A stretch of DNA of 48,398 nt from an uncultured Desulfobulbaceae bacterium (GTDB lineage: Bacteria; Desulfobacterota; Desulfobulbia; Desulfobulbales; CALZHT01), in NCBI GenBank assembly GCA_945787445.1, contig CALZHT010000019.1, forward strand, positions 1 to 48,398, read 5' to 3'. Shown here in pieces: positions 3,282 to 19,185 of this stretch (positions within the stretch are counted from its first letter, which is position 1; each line of letters opens with the position of its first letter). The position numbers were made by a program, and so were the translations under genes. A model generated the notes under the pieces. The model was not told the DNA's origin. It saw only the letters and a list, made by a program, of their open reading frames with translations, and did not search any database.

Positions 3282-3327
3282 AAAAAAAAGACCGAGCCTA
3301 CCAAAGGTTTATCCTTCGGCAGCTCGG
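3282..3327 (-). terminator. Intrinsic terminator of the riboswitch
   Basis: Read on the minus strand, ccgagc and tgccgaagg pair with cctttggta and ggctcgg, around the loop ataaa. A tract of eight T follows after two bases. The 5' arm overlaps the 3' end of the aptamer (gccgagctgccga), so folding of the aptamer and of the terminator should be mutually exclusive or linked. That is the expected layout of an ON/OFF expression platform. Confidence 0.85.
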
Positions 3328-3392
3328 CCATCTTGTTTCTAAGACCCGCCACTTTCCGTCCCGCCTTTTCAGGCGGTTTGGCTTTATCGGAT
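3314..3392 (-). promoter_or_regulatory. c-di-GMP-I (GEMM) riboswitch aptamer
   Basis: On the minus strand the segment begins ccgataaagccaaacc, then ccgcct-GAAA-aggcgg (a six-pair stem with a GNRA tetraloop), then gggacggaaagtggc, gggtct, and closes with atggccgagctgccgaa. These blocks, their order and their spacing match the GEMM-I consensus (AAAGCCAAACC, GAAA-capped P1b, GGGACGCAAAG-like joining region, GGGTC arm, TGGCCGGGTTGCCGA-like 3' strand). The aptamer sits about 250 nt upstream of the secreted-protein start at 3066 and shares sequence with the terminator. The family assignment rests on sequence pattern, not on a covariance search. Confidence 0.85.
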
Positions 3393-9274: not shown

Positions 9275-10497
9275 TTAATCAAAAAGCAGCACCTCAATCG
9301 TTTCACCCTGTAAAAGTCCCTGCTGTTTTTCATCAATTATGATATAGCCGTGGGCTTTCACCATGGTGGAGAGCGCTCCCGACTTACCAAGCACCGGATG
9401 CGCCTCGAACAGACCACCATCCGTTGCTGCACGAATTTCCACCCGGATAAAATCCCGGCGCCCGGCTGTTGAATTCAAATTTCTCATAAGCCGGGCTGTA
9501 ATTGTACGTTTTTCAGGCAAACCGATTTCTGCCAATCCGGCAAGGTGGTATATGGTAGGCCGCACAAACAGTTCAAAAGACATGGCAGCCGATACCGGAT
9601 GCCCCGGGAGCCCGAATATCAGTTTATTCTCAATGGAGGCGATGATAACCGGTTTGCCCGGTTTGATCGCTTATCACGGGCGCCAACCGAGCTGCTGCCT
9701 GAAAAAAGTACCAGATCATTTTCATTGATGGCTGTTCGCAGCAGTGACAAAAATTGTTCTGCATCATCAATCACAATGCCGTAATTTTGCGGGATAGCAC
9801 CGGCGTTGCTTGCCAAAGCGGCAAGGTTTACTGCATTCATATCACGGATCTTACCCGGCAGAGGTGTTTCTTCAATAGGGACAATCTCGTCCCCCGTCGA
9901 AATTATGCCGACCTTCACCTGCCGGGTAACCGGAACCGCCACGATGCCCAATCCGGCCAGCAAACCAAGGTCCTGCGGACGCAATCGATGTCCTGCCGGA
10001 AGCACAGCATCACCCTTTTGCACATCTTCACCCACAGCAATCATATTCCCACCTGTGGCTACAGGCCGCACAATTTCTATCATCCTTTCATCCACGTTTA
10101 TGGTATGCTCAAGCATGACAACCGCATTTGTGGAAGGCGGTAGAACCCCTCCGGTTGCTATCCGGAAACAGGCGCCAGAATCCGGCCCCGCCACAGGAAA
10201 CTCGCCCATACTTACCTCCCCGGTAACTTCAAGATACGCAGGCAACTTTTCCGAGGCGCCGAAAGTATCAGCTGCCCTGACTGCAAATCCATCCATTGTT
10301 GCGCGGGGGTAGGCAGGCAGGTTTTCCGGTGAACGGATTTCTTGCGATGTTACGCGGCCACAAGCCTGTGCCAGGGGGTGTCTTTCCTCTGCCGATACAG
10401 GGGGAGGATAATGCATCTCCATGAGCTGCAACGCCTCAGATAACGAGACGATATCTGACCGGCCCAGCATATCAACAGTGCGGGATGATGTTTTCAT
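9275..10497 (-). pseudogene. moeA: moeA broken by internal frameshifting deletion
   Basis: A second molybdopterin molybdenumtransferase gene, of plain MoeA type, starting MKTSSRTVDML. The first part is intact through AYPRATMDGFAVR, PSTNAVVMLEHT, GIISTGDEIV and DLVLFSGSSSVGARD. It then runs out of frame to a stop at 9619. In another frame the sequence resumes at once as IKPGKPVIIAS, IFGLPGHPVSAAMSFELFVRPT and continues to 9275. Against the intact homologue at 7100-9028, the roughly 17 residues between GARD and IKPGKP are missing and only 2 nt replace them, a loss of about 49 nt. The 1223-nt span becomes divisible by three when 49 are added. An assembly error is possible. Confidence 0.85.
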
Positions 10498-10538
10498 GGA
10501 TACGTTGGTATACTCATAATTAGTAACCAAATACCTCA

Positions 10539-11354
10539 CTATTTCATTTTCTCTTCTGCTCCGGGATTTCCAGCAAACCGGATCCGTAAAGGATGGGTGT
10601 ATATATTCATTTTTTTGCCGCGGGCAAAGCCAATAAGGGTCACGCCGTGGTTCTCGGCATAGGAGATCGACATGCATGTCGGCGCGGTGCGGCTGACTAG
10701 AACCGGTATCCGGTTCCGTATAACCTTGGTCATGATTTCTCCTGATATTCTGCCGCTCGACAGGAGAACCTTGTCATCAAGAGACACTCCTGCCAGAAAA
10801 GCCTTGCCGATGAGTTTGTCCACCGCATTGTGCCGGCCGATGTCCTCAGAGAACAACACTATTTGATCTTTGTCGGCAAGAGCAGCGGAGTGTACACCGC
10901 CGGTGCGTAAATAGAGGTCGGATATATTCCGAAATTCCCGCAGCAGCGCTCGTATGGTCTCTGCCTCTAAAAGCAACGGGGAGCGGTTCATGGCCAGATC
11001 TTGGAGGCTGCGGCTGTCGGTGAAGGTCACTCCCTGGCCACATCCTGAGGTAATCGTCTTTTTATGAAATATTTGGTCCCAGTTATCCGGCAGCTTGGCA
11101 AGTTTTACATAGACCGACGCGTTTGTTTCGTCCACGTCAAGGGCCAGAAGTGCTTGGCGTTCCCGCAGGATTCCTTCCGACAGCAGAAAGCCGACCGCCA
11201 TAGTGTCAAGCTCGGTTGGGGTGCAGAGAAGCGAAACCAAGACCTCATCATTCACATACAGGGTAAAGGCAGATTCTGCCGCAACTTCATCAAGCAGTTC
11301 CTCAACCCGCCCTCCTTTTGCCCGGAAAATTACGGTTTTGCTCGTTGCATCCAT
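10539..11354 (-). CDS. fdhD: Formate dehydrogenase sulfur carrier FdhD
   Basis: FdhD passes sulfur from IscS-type desulfurases to the bis-pterin metal cofactor of formate dehydrogenase. From MDATSKTV it has about 271 residues. Family segments seen are ELDTMAVGFLLSEGIL, GGVHSAAL, EDIGRHNAVDKLIGKA, LLSSGRISGEIMTKVIR and PVLVSRTAPT. The sulfur-transfer loop reads TSGCGQG (Cys105) rather than the CxxC of E. coli FdhD, so only one cysteine is kept. The start is uncertain: the frame is open to 11441 and an ATG at 11426 follows the upstream stop by 1 nt. That extra segment contains a perfect hairpin and looks non-coding, so I chose 11354. Confidence 0.92.
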   Translation of the reverse strand: MDATSKTVIFRAKGGRVEELLDEVAAESAFTLYVNDEVLVSLLCTPTELDTMAVGFLLSEGILRERQALLALDVDETNASVYVKLAKLPDNWDQIFHKKTITSGCGQGVTFTDSRSLQDLAMNRSPLLLEAETIRALLREFRNISDLYLRTGGVHSAALADKDQIVLFSEDIGRHNAVDKLIGKAFLAGVSLDDKVLLSSGRISGEIMTKVIRNRIPVLVSRTAPTCMSISYAENHGVTLIGFARGKKMNIYTHPLRIRFAGNPGAEEKMK

Positions 11355-11737: not shown

Positions 11738-12049
11738 TTATTTTTCTATTAATTCCTTTGCCCAGGAAAGAGCAGCGGCTACGGTTGGAAATCCAATCGT
11801 ACTGGTGAGGAGAACAATGGCGTGATAAATTTCATTGGGTGTAGCCCCGGCGGCAAGCGCCCTCTTGCAATGGGAATGCACCGCCCCTTGTGAACGCACC
11901 GCGGCGGCAGCGGCCAGTTGAATGAGCTGTGCTTCCTTTTCGCCAAGGGGACCGGCGTCATGCAGATTCTTGCCTAACTCCTGATGTGCTTTCAGGACGT
12001 TGCTGAATTTTGCCATTAGCCAATTATAATTCTCTGGATACTGCGACAT
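11738..12049 (-). CDS. Carboxymuconolactone decarboxylase (AhpD-like) protein
   Basis: A 103-residue protein of the CMD/AhpD fold. Conserved features are KEAQLIQLAAAAAVRSQGAVHSHCKRALAAGATPNEIYHAIVLL and a C-terminal helix with FPTVAAALSW. The usual AhpD redox motif CxxC followed by His is replaced here by HSHCKRAL with a single Cys, so peroxidase-reductase activity is doubtful. The family is often annotated as an alkylhydroperoxidase-like protein without proven function. A good ribosome site (ggagaagg) precedes the ATG. It is the first gene of the fdhD-moeA string on this strand. Confidence 0.85.
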   Translation of the reverse strand: MSQYPENYNWLMAKFSNVLKAHQELGKNLHDAGPLGEKEAQLIQLAAAAAVRSQGAVHSHCKRALAAGATPNEIYHAIVLLTSTIGFPTVAAALSWAKELIEK

Positions 12050-12428: not shown

Positions 12429-13508
12429 TTACGGGACCTGGGGGTATTGCAACACGATGTCCTCTCCGGCCAGGGCCTCGACAAGAAAGGCCTTCAGGGC
12501 ATCCTTTTCATCCGCCTTCAATCCGAGTGGTTTAATTGCCGTATTGGCTTCTCCGCCGCCCAGGTCAAAAAATTCAATAACCTCCTCCAGGGTTGCAAAA
12601 ATGCCATTATGCATATAGGGCGCGGTTTTTGAAATATCCCGCAGGGTAGGAGTCTTGAAAGCCCGCCAGTCCTTGTCATCTTTGGTGATCAAATAGCGGC
12701 CCGGATCCTCTGCCAGAGTTCTGTAGCCGTCGAAATGATTGAGCTTTGCTACAAATCGCCGCGTTGCCGCTACCCGGGGGTCAGCCTGAAAGTCGGGATT
12801 TTCAGGAACGTTGAGGGCATGGAATTTATCATCAATCAGATTGACACCAAAATGGCACTCGGAACATTTGCCCTTACCGGTAAATATCTCAAGACCCTTT
12901 CTGGCGGAGGACGACAAGGCATCCTTTTCACCTGCCAGATACAGATCAATGGGGGCGTTTCTTGAAATCAATGTTCGCTCAAAAGCGGCGATGGCCATGG
13001 CAATCCTTTCCCGGGTGATATCATCGGTGCCAAACACCTTTCTGAACTCCGTTACGTATTCGGGCACAGAGCGGATCTCCTCTTCAAGAAAATCCAGGTT
13101 CTGATTCATTTCAAATGAGGACATCATGGGGAAGAGGGCTTGATCCTCGAGGCTTTCGACCCGGCCATCGTGGAATAAATATTTGCTGAAGACCACATTG
13201 ATCAGGGTGGGTGAGTTTCTCCAGTTTTTTGTGGTTGGATAACTCAATGAAATAGACTGGCCATCGGAAAAGCCCATTTCAGGCATGTGACAGGTAACAC
13301 AACTCATGGTCCCGTCTCCTGAGAGTCGTCGGTCAAAAAAAAGTTTTTTGCCCAACTCCACTTTTGCCGGAGTTGTCGGGTTCTTGTGCCATACCGGCAC
13401 GCCTTTGAAAGGTTGCAGATGTCCTGCCAGACCAGTGGTGGGCAAAACGAAAAACGCCCAAAGCAAGAAAGCTATAACGAATGCGAGAACAGAACTATTT
13501 TTCGGCAT
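12429..13508 (-). CDS. Di-heme cytochrome c peroxidase (MauG/CcpA family)
   Basis: A periplasmic di-heme peroxidase, about 359 residues from the ATG at 13508, which reduces hydrogen peroxide with electrons from small c-type cytochromes. A signal peptide (FVIAFLLWAFFVLP) is followed by heme site 1, CVTCH (Cys70, Cys73, His74), and heme site 2, CSECH (Cys215, Cys218, His219). Family segments KLFFDRRLSGDGTMSC, FSDGQSIS, RNSPTLIN, FHDGRVESLEDQA and FKTPTLRDISKTAPYMHNGIF are all present; the last carries the distal Met/His-type ligand region. A ggagg ribosome site lies 9 nt before the ATG. The gene overlaps the upstream selenoprotein gene by 14 nt, so the two are coupled. Confidence 0.95.
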   Translation of the reverse strand: MPKNSSVLAFVIAFLLWAFFVLPTTGLAGHLQPFKGVPVWHKNPTTPAKVELGKKLFFDRRLSGDGTMSCVTCHMPEMGFSDGQSISLSYPTTKNWRNSPTLINVVFSKYLFHDGRVESLEDQALFPMMSSFEMNQNLDFLEEEIRSVPEYVTEFRKVFGTDDITRERIAMAIAAFERTLISRNAPIDLYLAGEKDALSSSARKGLEIFTGKGKCSECHFGVNLIDDKFHALNVPENPDFQADPRVAATRRFVAKLNHFDGYRTLAEDPGRYLITKDDKDWRAFKTPTLRDISKTAPYMHNGIFATLEEVIEFFDLGGGEANTAIKPLGLKADEKDALKAFLVEALAGEDIVLQYPQVP

Positions 13509-14091
13509 GCTGCAACTCCTCCGCAATAATTTTTCTCATATACTCATACGGTCGGTTGCCGATGACCTTGCGGCCGTTTATGAAAAAGGTCGGTGTGTTA
13601 TACAGATCCAAGGAAACCGCAAGCTCCTTGTCTTTTTCAATAAGCTCCTTATGTTTCATGGCATCAAGATCACGGCTGAACCGCTTAATGTTCAGACCCA
13701 GTTCTCCAGCATATGCGATGAGGCTTTCACGATCGAGCTTGGGGGAGCGGGCAAGCATCATATCGTGCATCTCCCAGTATTTTCCCTGGTCTCCTGCCGC
13801 CAATAAAGCCTCGGCGGCAATATGTGAGTAGTCGCGGTACTTATACGGATAATTTTTCAGAATAAGTCGTATCTTGCCCTTATATTCCTCCATGAGCCTA
13901 TGGACGGTCGGACCGGCCGCCGTACAATGCGGTCATTGAAAGTCAAGAAATTCTATCATGGTGATCGGCGCATCCTTCGGGCCGCGCTGGGGGGAATTCC
14001 CCAAAGGAACATCAAACCGCTCTATACTTGCAGCAATTCCGAGCGCTGCAAAGGCAAAAAAGAAAACGACAAAGACAAGCATGCTGCGCAT
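13495..14091 (-). CDS. DsbA-like selenoprotein with U-P-H-C active site
   Basis: A thioredoxin-fold thiol oxidoreductase of about 198 residues, read through an in-frame TGA at 13935-13933. It begins MRSMLVFVVFFFAFAALGIAA, a signal peptide or membrane anchor, then PKDAPITMIEFLDFQ, then codon 53 TGA, then PHCTAAGPTVHRL. In DsbA-type proteins the same place reads FxDFQCPxC, so TGA stands exactly where the first active-site Cys is expected: U53-P-H-C56. The rest is a full DsbA helical insert and cis-Pro loop (NTPTFFING, Pro167). A SECIS-like hairpin follows the TGA directly (13901-13926). A ribosome site (aaagagg) precedes the ATG. A pipeline would start it at 13893 and lose the active site. The likely role is periplasmic thiol or selenol redox chemistry. 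Confidence 0.88.
13901..13926 (-). promoter_or_regulatory. SECIS-like hairpin for the DsbA-like selenoprotein
   Basis: On the minus strand, starting 6 nt after the TGA, tg-t-acgg-cgg pairs with ccg-a-ccgt-c-ca around the loop ccggt. The stem has seven core G-C-rich pairs with a single bulged A and two more pairs beyond a mismatch. The apical loop contains GGU, as in the E. coli fdhF element that SelB binds. Position, size and loop match bacterial SECIS elements. Confidence 0.8.
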
Positions 14092-14180: not shown

Positions 14181-15320
14181 TCAGGTCTGCATTTCCGCTT
14201 CCGGAAAAAGGGCAAGGTATTTTGCCGCAACCTTAAAGAGGAAGATCCCCAGTGCGACAATGGCCAGAGTCAGCAGGAATTCCATAACAGAAGGAAAATA
14301 GCTTCCCCCCATGGACTTGCCGTATCCGTACAAGCCGAAGACTGCAATGTTCATGCGGTTCAGGAGTACACCTGCAACAACAAGGATATTCACGGTCAGC
14401 AAACCATTGACACCCTGTTTTACATTCGTTCCCAGCAACAGGACAAGCGGGACAACCACACCGCCTCCAACCTCCAAGAGATAGAGGTTTGCTTCCATGC
14501 TGCCGTTAAAGATTGCCGCAAACCCCGGTCCTTGCAAGAGGTAGATCACTTTCATAATCAGATACAGACCAAGGGTAATTATCGAACCTCTGGCCAGGCC
14601 CTGCAGGATATCCATATGTGGCTTATGTTTAAAGGCCTTGGAGCTGATAATTGATTCCAGACTCACCATATTGAGGCCCATGGCCACAGCAGATACCAGG
14701 AAAAAATACGGGATGAGAGAGTTGTACCAGAGAGGAGACAGCTTTTCCGCCACAATCAGATAGAGCGCTCCCAAGGATGATTGGTGCAGGACGGAAAGCA
14801 TTACGCCGAACAGCACAACTCCCATCATAATGCCATTGATGAATTTTAACAGGCCATGCATTTTCAACCGTTCAAACACCATGGGAGAAAATTCTACGGC
14901 CAGCGTCGTGGTATAAAACATGACATGCATGGCCACAATCCACATGACCGAATGATACTGCCACATAAAGGCCGGATGCCATATCCGATGGGGCTGGCCC
15001 AGGTCAAAAAAGAGGGAAATAACAGCCATCAAATAGCCAAGAAAGGCAGTCAGCACCGCTGGTCTCACTATGGGTTTGTATTTCTTCCAGTTCAGGAGGT
15101 AGACCGTGCCGGCAATAATAAAGCCGCCGGCCGCCATGGCCACCCCGCCGAGCAGGTCAAAGCCTATCCACAGCCCCCACGGAAAATCATCGTTGAGATT
15201 GGTTGCCGCCCCTAAACCATTAACCAGACGGTAAATCGCCACTACAAAACCCAGAGCCATAGCGAGAAGCAATACCATAGTGAACGGCGTCATCATTTTT
15301 ATTTCTTTGGTATCATTCAT
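14181..15320 (-). CDS. NrfD/HybB-type membrane subunit of formate dehydrogenase
   Basis: A 379-residue polytopic membrane protein with about ten hydrophobic spans. Segments such as PWGLWIGFDLLGGVAMAAGG, FFDLGQPHRIWHP, SVLHQSSLGALYL and the C-terminal NRMNIAVFGL are typical of the NrfD/HybB (PSR membrane subunit) family, which passes electrons between a periplasmic Fe-S subunit and quinone without heme. It replaces the heme b subunit FdnI found in E. coli formate dehydrogenase N. The start follows an excellent ribosome site (aaggaggg) and lies 2 nt past the stop of the Fe-S subunit, so the genes are one operon. The natural partner is the menaquinone pool; this is family knowledge, not shown here. 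Confidence 0.92.
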   Translation of the reverse strand: MNDTKEIKMMTPFTMVLLLAMALGFVVAIYRLVNGLGAATNLNDDFPWGLWIGFDLLGGVAMAAGGFIIAGTVYLLNWKKYKPIVRPAVLTAFLGYLMAVISLFFDLGQPHRIWHPAFMWQYHSVMWIVAMHVMFYTTTLAVEFSPMVFERLKMHGLLKFINGIMMGVVLFGVMLSVLHQSSLGALYLIVAEKLSPLWYNSLIPYFFLVSAVAMGLNMVSLESIISSKAFKHKPHMDILQGLARGSIITLGLYLIMKVIYLLQGPGFAAIFNGSMEANLYLLEVGGGVVVPLVLLLGTNVKQGVNGLLTVNILVVAGVLLNRMNIAVFGLYGYGKSMGGSYFPSVMEFLLTLAIVALGIFLFKVAAKYLALFPEAEMQT

Positions 15321-15322
15321 GA

Positions 15323-16096
15323 TTAGCCCTCCTTGTTCATATTTGCATGGCGACGGGTTATCACCCAGGCTCCCAGGCCGGCCACAAAAGTAATACCGAA
15401 CAACGGCAGGACATGGGAAACATACTCCCAGGTAAGATCCGGCAATGGCGCAACTGGGATATTCATCTTGAAACCCAGGTCTTCAAAAGGAACACCGGAG
15501 ATATACATCCAGGAGGTGCCCCCGGCCTCTTCCAGACCATAGATATGCTTGACATATTTTGCAGGACTTCTGTTGAGCCTGTTTTTTGCTTCCGCCACCA
15601 CCTTGTCGTATTCCTCATAAAACATGGTGCCGGTGGGGCAGACTTTGATGCAGGCCGGTATCATGCCGTCCTTAATGCGTTCGGAGCAGAAGCTGCATTT
15701 CTGTACCCATGGCAGGGCTGATTCCCATTCATATTTTGGTATATGAAATGGACAGGCAACCATGCAGTACCGGCAGCCGATACAGCGATCATACCTGTAA
15801 ACTACAGGCCCGGCTTCCGTCTTTTTGAGTGCGGTTACCGGACAGACTGATACACAGGCTGGCTCCTTGCAATGCAGACACTGATTTTTTACGAAACTCC
15901 AGACCGGCACCCCATTTTTCTCCTGCTCATGAAACCGAATATGGGTGTAACAATCCGAATTTAATGCCGTGGGATTGGTATAATCGCCATGAAAGCTGGT
16001 CCTTCTTGCCTTGCGTTCATTCCATTCCTTGCAGGCTATCTGGCAACCACGGCAACCGATACAACGCGTCAGATCGATCAATACTGCTTTTGACAT
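15323..16096 (-). CDS. fdhB: Formate dehydrogenase iron-sulfur subunit
   Basis: A 257-residue electron-transfer subunit. It has four cysteine clusters for four [4Fe-4S] centres: CIGCRGCQIACKEWN, CLHCKEPACVSVCPV, CIGCRYCMVACPFHIP, and CSFCSERI...ACIKVCPTG. A C-terminal hydrophobic span (LPLFGITFVAGLGAWVI) followed by RRHA anchors it to the membrane, as in FdnH. There is no signal peptide, so it is probably exported with the Tat-signal-bearing catalytic subunit. The ribosome site is ggggga. It sits 11 nt after the catalytic subunit's stop. Confidence 0.95.
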   Translation of the reverse strand: MSKAVLIDLTRCIGCRGCQIACKEWNERKARRTSFHGDYTNPTALNSDCYTHIRFHEQEKNGVPVWSFVKNQCLHCKEPACVSVCPVTALKKTEAGPVVYRYDRCIGCRYCMVACPFHIPKYEWESALPWVQKCSFCSERIKDGMIPACIKVCPTGTMFYEEYDKVVAEAKNRLNRSPAKYVKHIYGLEEAGGTSWMYISGVPFEDLGFKMNIPVAPLPDLTWEYVSHVLPLFGITFVAGLGAWVITRRHANMNKEG

Positions 16097-16107: not shown

Positions 16108-19100
16108 CTATATTTTCTCGACGTTAACCATGAACGCCTTGGTTTCAGGGATCATGGTGTTGGCGTCGCCAATGGTTGGTGTTAGGAGGTTTGCACTGTC
16201 TCCGCCGCTACCGTCCACCGGGAACTGCCAGCCAAAGCACCATGGCAAGCCTACCTGATGAACGGTCGAGCCCATAACCTTAAAAGGCTTGAATCTGCTC
16301 GTGACTGTAGCTATGGCCCAGAGCTCTCCACGTCCGGATGTCACCTTGACTTTTTCACCATTTTTGATACCCAGGTCAGCAGCAAGTTCCTTGCTCATTT
16401 CCACAAAAACCTGGGGCATCATCTCCAGCAGCCACGGCTGATGCCTGGTCAAAACCCCAGTCTGCCAGTGTTCTGTTAGCCTGTAGGTAGTGGCCACAAA
16501 GGGATACCTGATATCACATGAATAAAAGATGTCTTCAGGAGTCTTGCCCTCTTCATAGAACAGTTTGGCAGTTGGATTTATCCTGTGCGCCTTGCTCAAA
16601 GGATTCTCCTGAATCGGGCACTCAAGCGGCTCATAATGCTCTGGAAATGGACCGTCATTACGGCCGGGGCCAAATATATGGGCCACACCAACAGGCTTCA
16701 TGATAAAGGCCTTTTTGCTCTTCGGATTGGCCGTGCCATCAGGGTTCTTTAAAGGTGGCCAGCCGCCGTCAGGAACATCCCCTACCCATTTGGTGCCGTT
16801 CCATTGGATCACCGGTCTGGCAGGATCCCATGGCTTACCGAATTCGTCCACTGAAGCGCGGTTGTAAATAATCCTCCGGTTCACCGGCCAGCACCAGGAC
16901 CATTCAGGATACAGCCCGACGCCGGTCGGATCTTCCTGCGAACGCCTGGCCATCATGTTGCCTTTTTCGGTGTAGGAATTACAGTAGAGCCAGTTGCCCG
17001 AGGAAGTGGAGCCATCAGTCTGCAGAAAGGCAAAACTCGGGACCAGGGTACCTTTGCGGTACAGTTTCCCTTTAACCTCCTTGTCCTCGAGAAAATACCC
17101 GTTTATCTCCTTGGCAATCATGTGGGTATCCACCTGCGTGACCTTACCGTCGGCATCTTTCGGGCCATAGTTCCAGTCCAGCTTTACCACCGGATCCGGA
17201 TAGGTTCCGCCTTCATTCTCATAGAGAGATTTCACCCGGTAAAAAAGGTCATTGATAATTTCGGAATCCGGCATGGATTGACCGCTTGGCTCCTGGGCCT
17301 TATAGCGCCACTGCGCCCAGCGCCCGGAGTTGGTGATACTGCCTTCCTTTTCCATGGATGCGCAGCAGGGCAGGAAGAAGACTTCGGTCTTGATGTCAGC
17401 GGAATTCACACCAGGGCCGCGCCAGAAAGAGCCGGTTTCGTTATCAAACAGGTTGACATTCACCATCCAGTCGAGTTTGGCCAGCGCCCTGCGGACCTTG
17501 CCTGCATTGGATCCGGAGCAGGTGGGATTCTGGCCCCAGGCGAAGAAGCCCTTGAATTTTCCCTGGAGCATTTCATGGAAAATCATGAGCCAGGAGGCGT
17601 TCTGTCCGTCATCCAACTTGGGCAGCCAACTGTAGCCGAAATCATTTTCCCTGGTGCCGTTTTCACCATAATGGGCCTTGAGCAGACTTACCGAATATTT
17701 GGGATAGTTGCCCCACCAGTTTGCAGAGAGCGGCTCACTTGTCTTTGGTGTATATTTGTCATTATACGCCTTAAGCGTAGGCTGCGAGGCTTTGGGAGTT
17801 TTCAAATATCCCGGCAGGATATGGAAGAGCAGACAATGATCGGTGGAGCCCTGCACATTGCTCTCGCCTCTAAGGGCATTTACCCCACCGCCGGCCCGGC
17901 CGATATTGCCAAGCAGGAGCTGCACAATGGCCATGGCCCTGATATTCTGGGTGCCGACCGTATGCTGGGTCCAGCCCATGGCGTACATGATGGTTGCCAC
18001 CTTATCGGGCTTGCCGGTGGCGCCGTATGCCTGGTAGACCTTTTCAAGTAAATCCTTCGGGGTGCCGGTAATGGCCGAAACCGTGTCAGGGTCATAGCGG
18101 GAATAGTGTTTCTTCAACAGTTGAAAAACGCAGTAAGGATCCTGCATGGTTGGATCTTGCAGGATTACGCCGTCTCCACCCTTCTGATATGCCCAGGCCT
18201 TTTTATCGTATTTTCTTTTCTGGGCATCATACCCGGAGAAAATCCCGTCCAGTTCTCCCGGCATCTTGAAGTCTTTGTTGACGAGAAATGGGCCGTTTGT
18301 ATAGAGCCGCACATAATCATTGTGCTGCAGGTTATTCTGCAGGATATAGTTGATCATGCCGCCGATGAATGGAATATCGGAACCTGAGCGCAGCGGTGCA
18401 AATATGTCCGCCTTTGCAGAAGTCCGGGTGAACCGTGGATCAACGCTGAGGAGGGTTGCGCCGCGCTGTTTCGCTTCGGTTACCCATTTGAAGGAGATGG
18501 GATGGTTTTCAGCAGCATTGCTGCCCATAATCAGGATGACATCTGCGTTTCTGATATCAATCCAGTGATTCGTCATTGCCCCGCGACCGAACGACTCTGC
18601 CAGAGCCGCAACTGTTGCAGAGTGTCAGATACGGGCCTGGTGTTCTATATAAACAAGCCCAAGGGAACGGAGCCATTTCTGGAGGACATAGCACTCCTCA
18701 TTATCAAGGGCGGCACTGCCGACATGGGCGATGCCGTCGCAGCGGTTGACCTCCTGGTTCTTGACATTATGCCGGACAAAGGTCTCGTCCCGGGTTTTCT
18801 TTATTCTCTTGGCGATCTCATCAAAGGCCCAGTCCCACTCGACTTCCTTCCAGTCGCTGGCGCCCGCCTCCCGATACCTGGGTTTCGTGACCCGTGTTGG
18901 ATTATTGGCTACCTGAAAAAGGGCCGCCCCTTTAGAACAAAGGGTGCCACGGTTTACCGGGTGGTCCGGATCGCCTTCGATATTGACGACCTTGCCGTCC
19001 TTGCTGTGGGCGATCATACCGCAACCCACAGCACAATATGGGCAGATGGTTGTGGTTACCTGTGCGCCCTTGGTGCGGTTCTCCCGCTCCCTGGCTTCCG

Positions 19101-19185
19101 CTTCCTCCGGGGATAGGCCAACAACCGTGCTGGCAATAGCCGTTCCACCGGAGTACTTCAGAAAATCTCGCCGAGATATACCCAT
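16108..19185 (-). CDS. fdhA: Selenocysteine formate dehydrogenase catalytic subunit, Tat-exported
   Basis: The catalytic subunit that oxidises formate to CO2 at a bis-pterin W or Mo centre, 1025 residues when the in-frame TGA at 18627-18625 is read as selenocysteine 187. Surrounding residues EHQARI-U-HSATVAAL and GRGAMTNHWIDI match FdnG-type enzymes, where Sec196 ligates the metal. The N-terminus MGISRRDFLKYSGG is a Tat signal. One [4Fe-4S] site is C48-x2-C51-x3-C55-x27-C83. A SECIS-like hairpin follows the TGA (18594-18623). The ribosome site gggaggt precedes the ATG. Ordinary gene calling would split it into 186- and 822-residue pieces. The enzyme faces the periplasm and donates to the Fe-S and HybB-type subunits downstream. 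Tungsten use is inferred from tupABC. Confidence 0.96.
18594..18623 (-). promoter_or_regulatory. SECIS-like hairpin of fdhA
   Basis: Immediately after the TGA, actctgc pairs perfectly with gcagagt, and an inner cag/ctg stem sits beyond a 2-nt bulge, with loop ttgcggct. The two stems and the short distance from TGA fit the bacterial SECIS pattern required for SelB-directed Sec insertion. Confidence 0.8.

Follow-up and report, generated by a model that had tools for sequence, protein, structure and literature searches.

A predicted DsbA-like selenoprotein encoded between a selenocysteine-containing formate dehydrogenase and a di-heme peroxidase in an uncultured Desulfobulbaceae bacterium

The stretch of DNA analysed here (48,398 nucleotides, referred to as the window) contains a gene, named dsbU in this work, whose product is very probably a selenocysteine (Sec)-containing DsbA-like oxidoreductase. 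The gene is the fourth in a conserved cluster with the order fdhA(Sec)-fdhB-membrane subunit-dsbU-peroxidase, and its product most likely serves the periplasmic formate dehydrogenase module encoded in the same cluster. Standard gene annotation truncates dsbU in dozens of genomes, so that both the enzyme and the operon are easily missed. The coordinates of the features are given in Table 1.

Table 1. Positions of dsbU, its RNA and protein features, and the clustered genes in the window.
Feature	Position	Strand	Evidence or remark
dsbU (dsbA-like selenoprotein gene)	13495..14091	(-)	198 codons and TAG; in-frame TGA is codon 53
N-terminal signal peptide or membrane helix, residues 1-21	14029..14091	(-)	MRSMLVFVVFFFAFAALGIAA; helix 2-19 in the model
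Sec codon TGA, codon 53 of dsbU	13933..13935	(-)	Translation and orthologues
Active-site motif U53-P54-H55-C56 (TGA CCG CAT TGT)	13924..13935	(-)	TGA shared by 51/51 sequences of the clade
SECIS-like hairpin, 12-30 nt after TGA, apical GGUC at 13914-13911	13903..13921	(-)	Synonymous constraint, compensatory pairs, covariance-model match of 53.9 bits
Thioredoxin-fold loop with Thr166 and cis-Pro167 (NTPTFF)	13591..13596	(-)	T166 and P167 identical in all aligned sequences
fdhA, formate dehydrogenase-N type alpha subunit, Tat-type signal	16108..19185	(-)	Second Sec codon, U187 (TGA 18627-18625)
fdhB, 4Fe-4S beta subunit (HmcB/FDH-beta like)	15323..16096	(-)	Profile matches
NrfD/HmcC-type membrane subunit	14181..15320	(-)	Profile matches
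Di-heme peroxidase, CCP/MauG family	12429..13508	(-)	Two CXXCH; adjacent in 38/39 loci

The dsbU gene and the conservation of its TGA codon

The first-pass annotation had placed the gene correctly at 13495-14091 and had named no strand; the gene lies on the minus strand. The elements it had described, namely the ATG, the signal peptide, FLDFQ-TGA-PHC and a complete DsbA-like domain with the cis-Pro loop, were found in one frame, which is translated with TGA as Sec into MRSMLVFVVFFFAFAALGIAASIERFDVPLG...MIEFLDFQUPHCTAAGPTV...LYNTPTFFINGRKVIG...AEK (198 aa) and is followed by TAG. As it had stated, the TGA sits on the first Cys of the active site, which gives U-P-H-C with codon 53 in the first position. 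The 132-residue fragment that it had expected from ordinary annotation was obtained by table-11 ORF calling, which reduces dsbU to an ORF at 13893-13495. When Cys was placed at position 53, the Pfam profiles Thioredoxin_4 (97.9 bits) and DSBA (66.6 bits) both scored above their cut-offs. The predicted structure has a pLDDT of 87.7, with the thioredoxin core beginning at about residue 43, and its best structure matches are the DsbA-like enzymes 6eez, 3gyk, BdbD (3eu3) and ScsC.

Orthologues were found at E<=1e-40 in 40 of the 258 genomes of the host's order, and the TGA lies inside the match in all 40, one MAG carrying an additional TAA. The phylum sample yielded more TGA orthologues, in families f41, f59, f109 and f112, and the TGA clade spans 13 family-level groups over the order and the phylum sample. 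In a maximum-likelihood tree computed with the Sec/Cys column masked, the 51 TGA sequences form one clade (SH-aLRT 96) without a single Cys member, and the closest sequence outside it is L124, a Cys protein on a long branch. Of the rows outside the clade, 30 have Cys at codon 53 and six, on about four branches, have Sec; no other residue occurs there. The comparison at codon 53 that the first-pass annotation had proposed therefore returned either TGA, as in 51/51 members of the clade, or Cys, as in other clades, with no unrelated residues. The identical TGA in dozens of independently assembled genomes excludes a base-calling error. Relatives of dsbU were not found in an IMG/VR search, and the best five plasmid relatives all had less than 60% identity.

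Further DsbA-like selenoproteins were observed beside this clade. The host's own genome encodes a second one of about 290 aa (L097; contig C13, 17681-18181, minus strand), which has a UPYC motif and an N-terminal propeller-like region. Within the order, its UPYC- or UPHC-bearing relatives are interspersed with Cys forms, so that switches between Sec and Cys look more frequent there. Tandem DsbA-like pairs, with a Sec copy (UPFC) beside a Cys copy (CPFC), were seen at L126 and L127.

A conserved hairpin and the selenocysteine machinery

In the stem of the hairpin, nucleotides 12-19 after the TGA pair with nucleotides 23-30, closing a GUC apical triloop with GGUC at the apex. The first-pass annotation had noticed this hairpin but had set it 6 nt after the TGA; its existence was confirmed, and the spacing was not, as the conserved stem begins 12 nt after the TGA. 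The region covers codons 58-62 (GCG GCC GGT CCG ACC in the window), whose third-position entropies across the orthologues are 0.24, 0.18, 0.14, 0.14 and 0.19 bits, compared with a mean of 1.62 bits (sd 0.25) at 39 other four-fold sites of dsbU (Mann-Whitney p=1.7e-4).

A free consensus computed with RNAalifold favoured a split two-hairpin structure, and the single stem was therefore put to an explicit test with slid and shuffled controls. Pairing was present in 90.4% of cells (35 distinct sequences) and was strongly reduced when the partner strand was slid; an equally high value was reached in 0 of 500 shuffles, where kinship among the sequences is a caveat. Changes on both sides occur in five of the eight stem pairs, such as G-C to A-U and C-G to U-A, and these compensatory changes across orthologues bear out the conservation of the hairpin. 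A covariance model built from the orthologue hairpins gave the dsbU site as its sole strong match in the genome, at 53.9 bits; the second match, on contig C65, scored 19.5 bits, and nothing above 12 bits was found on the Cys homologues and Sec paralogues. The window hairpin alone contains a C.A mismatch, and 96 of 2000 random synonymous recodings were equally or more stable, so its stability in the single sequence is only marginally unusual; it is the comparison over 50 orthologous regions that places the hairpin far beyond chance.

No SECIS family of Rfam matched the hairpin, either at the gathering threshold or at E up to 10. The SECIS of E. coli fdhF is a short hairpin about 20 nt past the UGA with GGUC at its apex. 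The dsbU hairpin shares the GGUC apex and the approximate distance, but its stem sequence is different, and it has no Rfam match.

The Sec machinery predicted for the host was detected in its genome as SelA, SelB (356 bits), SelD and tRNA-Sec (71.5 bits, cut-off 47), and the selD gene itself carries an in-frame TGA. SelB scored above its cut-off in 44 of the 49 TGA-bearing genomes tested; the five MAGs in which it did not are probably incomplete assemblies. The NrfD and MoeA2 genes of the window terminate in TGA, which indicates that TGA is also a normal stop here and has not simply been reassigned. The homologues with TGA or Cys, the sel genes and the conserved hairpin with its compensatory changes support, as far as sequence can, the first-pass reading of a Sec-dependent DsbA-like oxidoreductase, and insertion of Sec at codon 53 appears close to certain.

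Two other readings of the TGA are highly improbable. Decoding of UGA as Cys, Trp or another residue, through near-cognate decoding or a reassigned code, would also leave the frame open, but clear genes of the window terminate in TGA, the further genes with in-frame TGA (FdhA at U187, and SelD) are classic selenoproteins, and the SECIS-like constraint argues against it. Just as hard to credit is a genuine stop, in a decayed pseudogene or before a 132-aa ORF translated alone from ATG 13893; such a table-11 ORF is present, but the fragment has neither the first strand nor the motif, and the TGA is fixed in 51/51 sequences, invariably in place of the active-site Cys and between conserved parts of the domain, with the stem conserved and sel genes present.

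The gene cluster and the possible role of DsbU

The fdhA gene upstream, which the first-pass annotation had also taken to require Sec, does contain an in-frame TGA, at U187 in the context QARI-U187-HSATVA, and TGA occurs there in 33/33 alignable homologues. The likely start of the peroxidase (ATG 13508) overlaps the dsbU stop. Among 39 loci, of which 30 are from the order or from named Nitrospirae relatives and nine from elsewhere in the phylum, the di-heme peroxidase gene directly follows dsbU in 38, and a Sec-type fdhA lies upstream on the same strand in 35. The four loci without this fdhA are L100 and L115 (contig ends), L095 (only a distant homologue) and L094 (genome G033), where the TGA gene has neither neighbour. 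The Cys homologues L119, L121 and L125-L131 are without fdhA or peroxidase neighbours.

Several further genes and elements were observed around these loci. At L124 (1-10781), the Cys form lies directly upstream of a Sec-type fdhA, and the surroundings, read by eye, contain desulfoferrodoxin-, rubrerythrin/ferritin- and flavodiiron-like genes, an apparent oxygen defence. A small carboxymuconolactone-decarboxylase/AhpD-like protein is encoded at 11738-12049 (minus strand) in the window and also follows the peroxidase in L077, L078, L089 and L095. The moeA-like gene of the window (9275-10677, minus strand) has an apparent frameshift that divides it into ORFs of 352 and 102 aa, which may be a sequence error or a real mutation; its counterpart in L077 is intact (425 aa). 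A c-di-GMP-I-GGC riboswitch aptamer (67 bits) was found at 3314-3391, minus strand.

The peroxidase belongs to the CCP_MauG superfamily, with a PF03150 match of 173 bits and CXXCH motifs at 76 and 221. Counted after the likely ATG start, it has no Cys other than those of the two motifs, and the membrane subunit has none at all, so that neither needs a structural disulfide. Most Cys residues of FdhB look like Fe-S ligands, and FdhA, from its twin-arginine-type signal, would be exported in a folded state. With the Cys content of the other subunits, no neighbour is thus an evident client for disulfide formation.

DsbU would be an exported, single-domain thiol:disulfide oxidoreductase of the DsbA fold, in which the attacking residue of the motif U53-P-H-C56 is selenocysteine. 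Sec would be put in at the UGA by SelB, with the hairpin downstream acting as the SECIS. From what is known of the family, U53 would be the nucleophile towards a disulfide or towards oxidised sulfur or selenium in the periplasm, and the resulting mixed bond would be resolved by C56, so that the enzyme cycles between the selenol/thiol and selenenylsulfide states. As judged from the sequence, it may act as an oxidase, a reductase or an isomerase.

As no disulfide client is evident among the neighbours, a role in repair or protection is favoured, in which DsbU would uphold or restore redox-sensitive sulfur and selenium groups of the periplasmic formate dehydrogenase, and the di-heme enzyme would remove peroxide. 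The gene linkage is silent on which partner is the client, and the proposal that DsbU is the partner which repairs or protects thiol and selenol groups of this formate dehydrogenase is only tentative. A doubtful extension is that the Sec-DsbA and the di-heme peroxidase form a dedicated, conserved device for the protection or maturation of periplasmic Sec formate dehydrogenases, with one selenoprotein maintaining another.

The first alternative is a Sec DsbA that forms disulfides in the periplasm in general and is placed in the operon only for anaerobic co-expression. The DsbA fold, a UPHC motif that matches the classic CPHC, the monomer size and the lack of a dimerisation domain suit such a role, which is nevertheless rather unlikely because the linkage to one enzyme module is tight throughout the clade, the same genomes contain further DsbA-like paralogues, and Sec tends to promote reduction or rapid exchange.

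The constancy of the peroxidase as a neighbour (38/39) and the two CXXCH pairs as its only mature Cys residues point to another role, in which DsbU would act as a CcmG- or ResA-like thiol reductant when haem is attached to this peroxidase. It is unlikely, as the fold is of the DsbA type and not of the CcmG/ResA type, and maturation of c-type cytochromes is normally common to all cytochromes, so that a dedicated factor ought to be unnecessary.

The best NCBIfam scores of the peroxidase are to two protein-modifying enzymes, TTQ MauG (233.7 bits) and MbnH (211.7 bits), and mau operons include the thioredoxin-like MauD. The di-heme enzyme and DsbU might thus work together like MauG and MauD in the modification or maturation of a protein, for instance the formate dehydrogenase. 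This is distinctly improbable: both scores are far below their cut-offs (443.85 for TTQ MauG, TIGR03791), the di-heme enzyme comes closest, among solved structures, to bacterial cytochrome c peroxidases such as Geobacter 3hq6, and the residue aligned to what we take to be the haem ligand, Met in CCP and Tyr in MauG, is mostly Phe. In the available part of one report, MauG and DsbA are treated separately (PMC7726332).

These readings overlap, and the order of preference, from repair or protection through a general oxidase and a haem-attachment reductant to a MauG/MauD-like pair, is a weak one. Should the linkage be functional, it offers the DsbA-like selenoproteins, which are poorly understood, a testable partner in the periplasmic Sec formate dehydrogenase with its di-heme peroxidase.

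Comparison with known systems

The DsbA-fold proteins Bacillus BdbD, Wolbachia alpha-DsbA2, ScsC and Silicibacter 3gyk share 20-28% identity with DsbU over about 165-182 columns, but have Cys instead of Sec, and we know of no link of these proteins to formate dehydrogenase. The Rcas_1661 family of thioredoxin-like (seleno)lipoproteins (NF041057, 'DsbG-like') is of the same superfamily and likewise contains a UxxC thioredoxin-like selenoprotein; membership of dsbU was rejected at 78.7 bits against a curated cut-off of 190. A DsbC/DsbG isomerase identity was also rejected, since the 198 aa, signal peptide included, hold no N-terminal dimerisation domain ahead of the core.

In a limited open-access literature search over titles and abstracts, no description of an operon of Sec-DsbA, formate dehydrogenase and peroxidase was found, so that the Sec-only clade and its operon association are apparently new. 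The molecule itself is a further DsbA-like UxxC selenoprotein, a kind known since 2005. According to the accessible parts of the sources, such proteins are recorded for the Sargasso Sea (PMC1088965) and for sequenced bacteria (PMC1794560), and reviews include them (PMC9312934, PMC13188914). With DsbA-like selenoprotein form 1, as described in the parts seen of PMC1088965, PMC1794560 and PMC13188914, dsbU shares the DsbA-like domain (PF01323; 66.6 bits against a cut-off of 25.6), Sec in the first position of UxxC through a TGA at the first Cys of CxxC, an in-frame UGA followed by a bacterial SECIS, here a hairpin with covariation and synonymous constraint, and a host with Sec machinery. It is set apart from form 1 (reference NIP15863.1), as far as the available descriptions go, by belonging to a Sec-only clade that is tied to a formate dehydrogenase/peroxidase operon.
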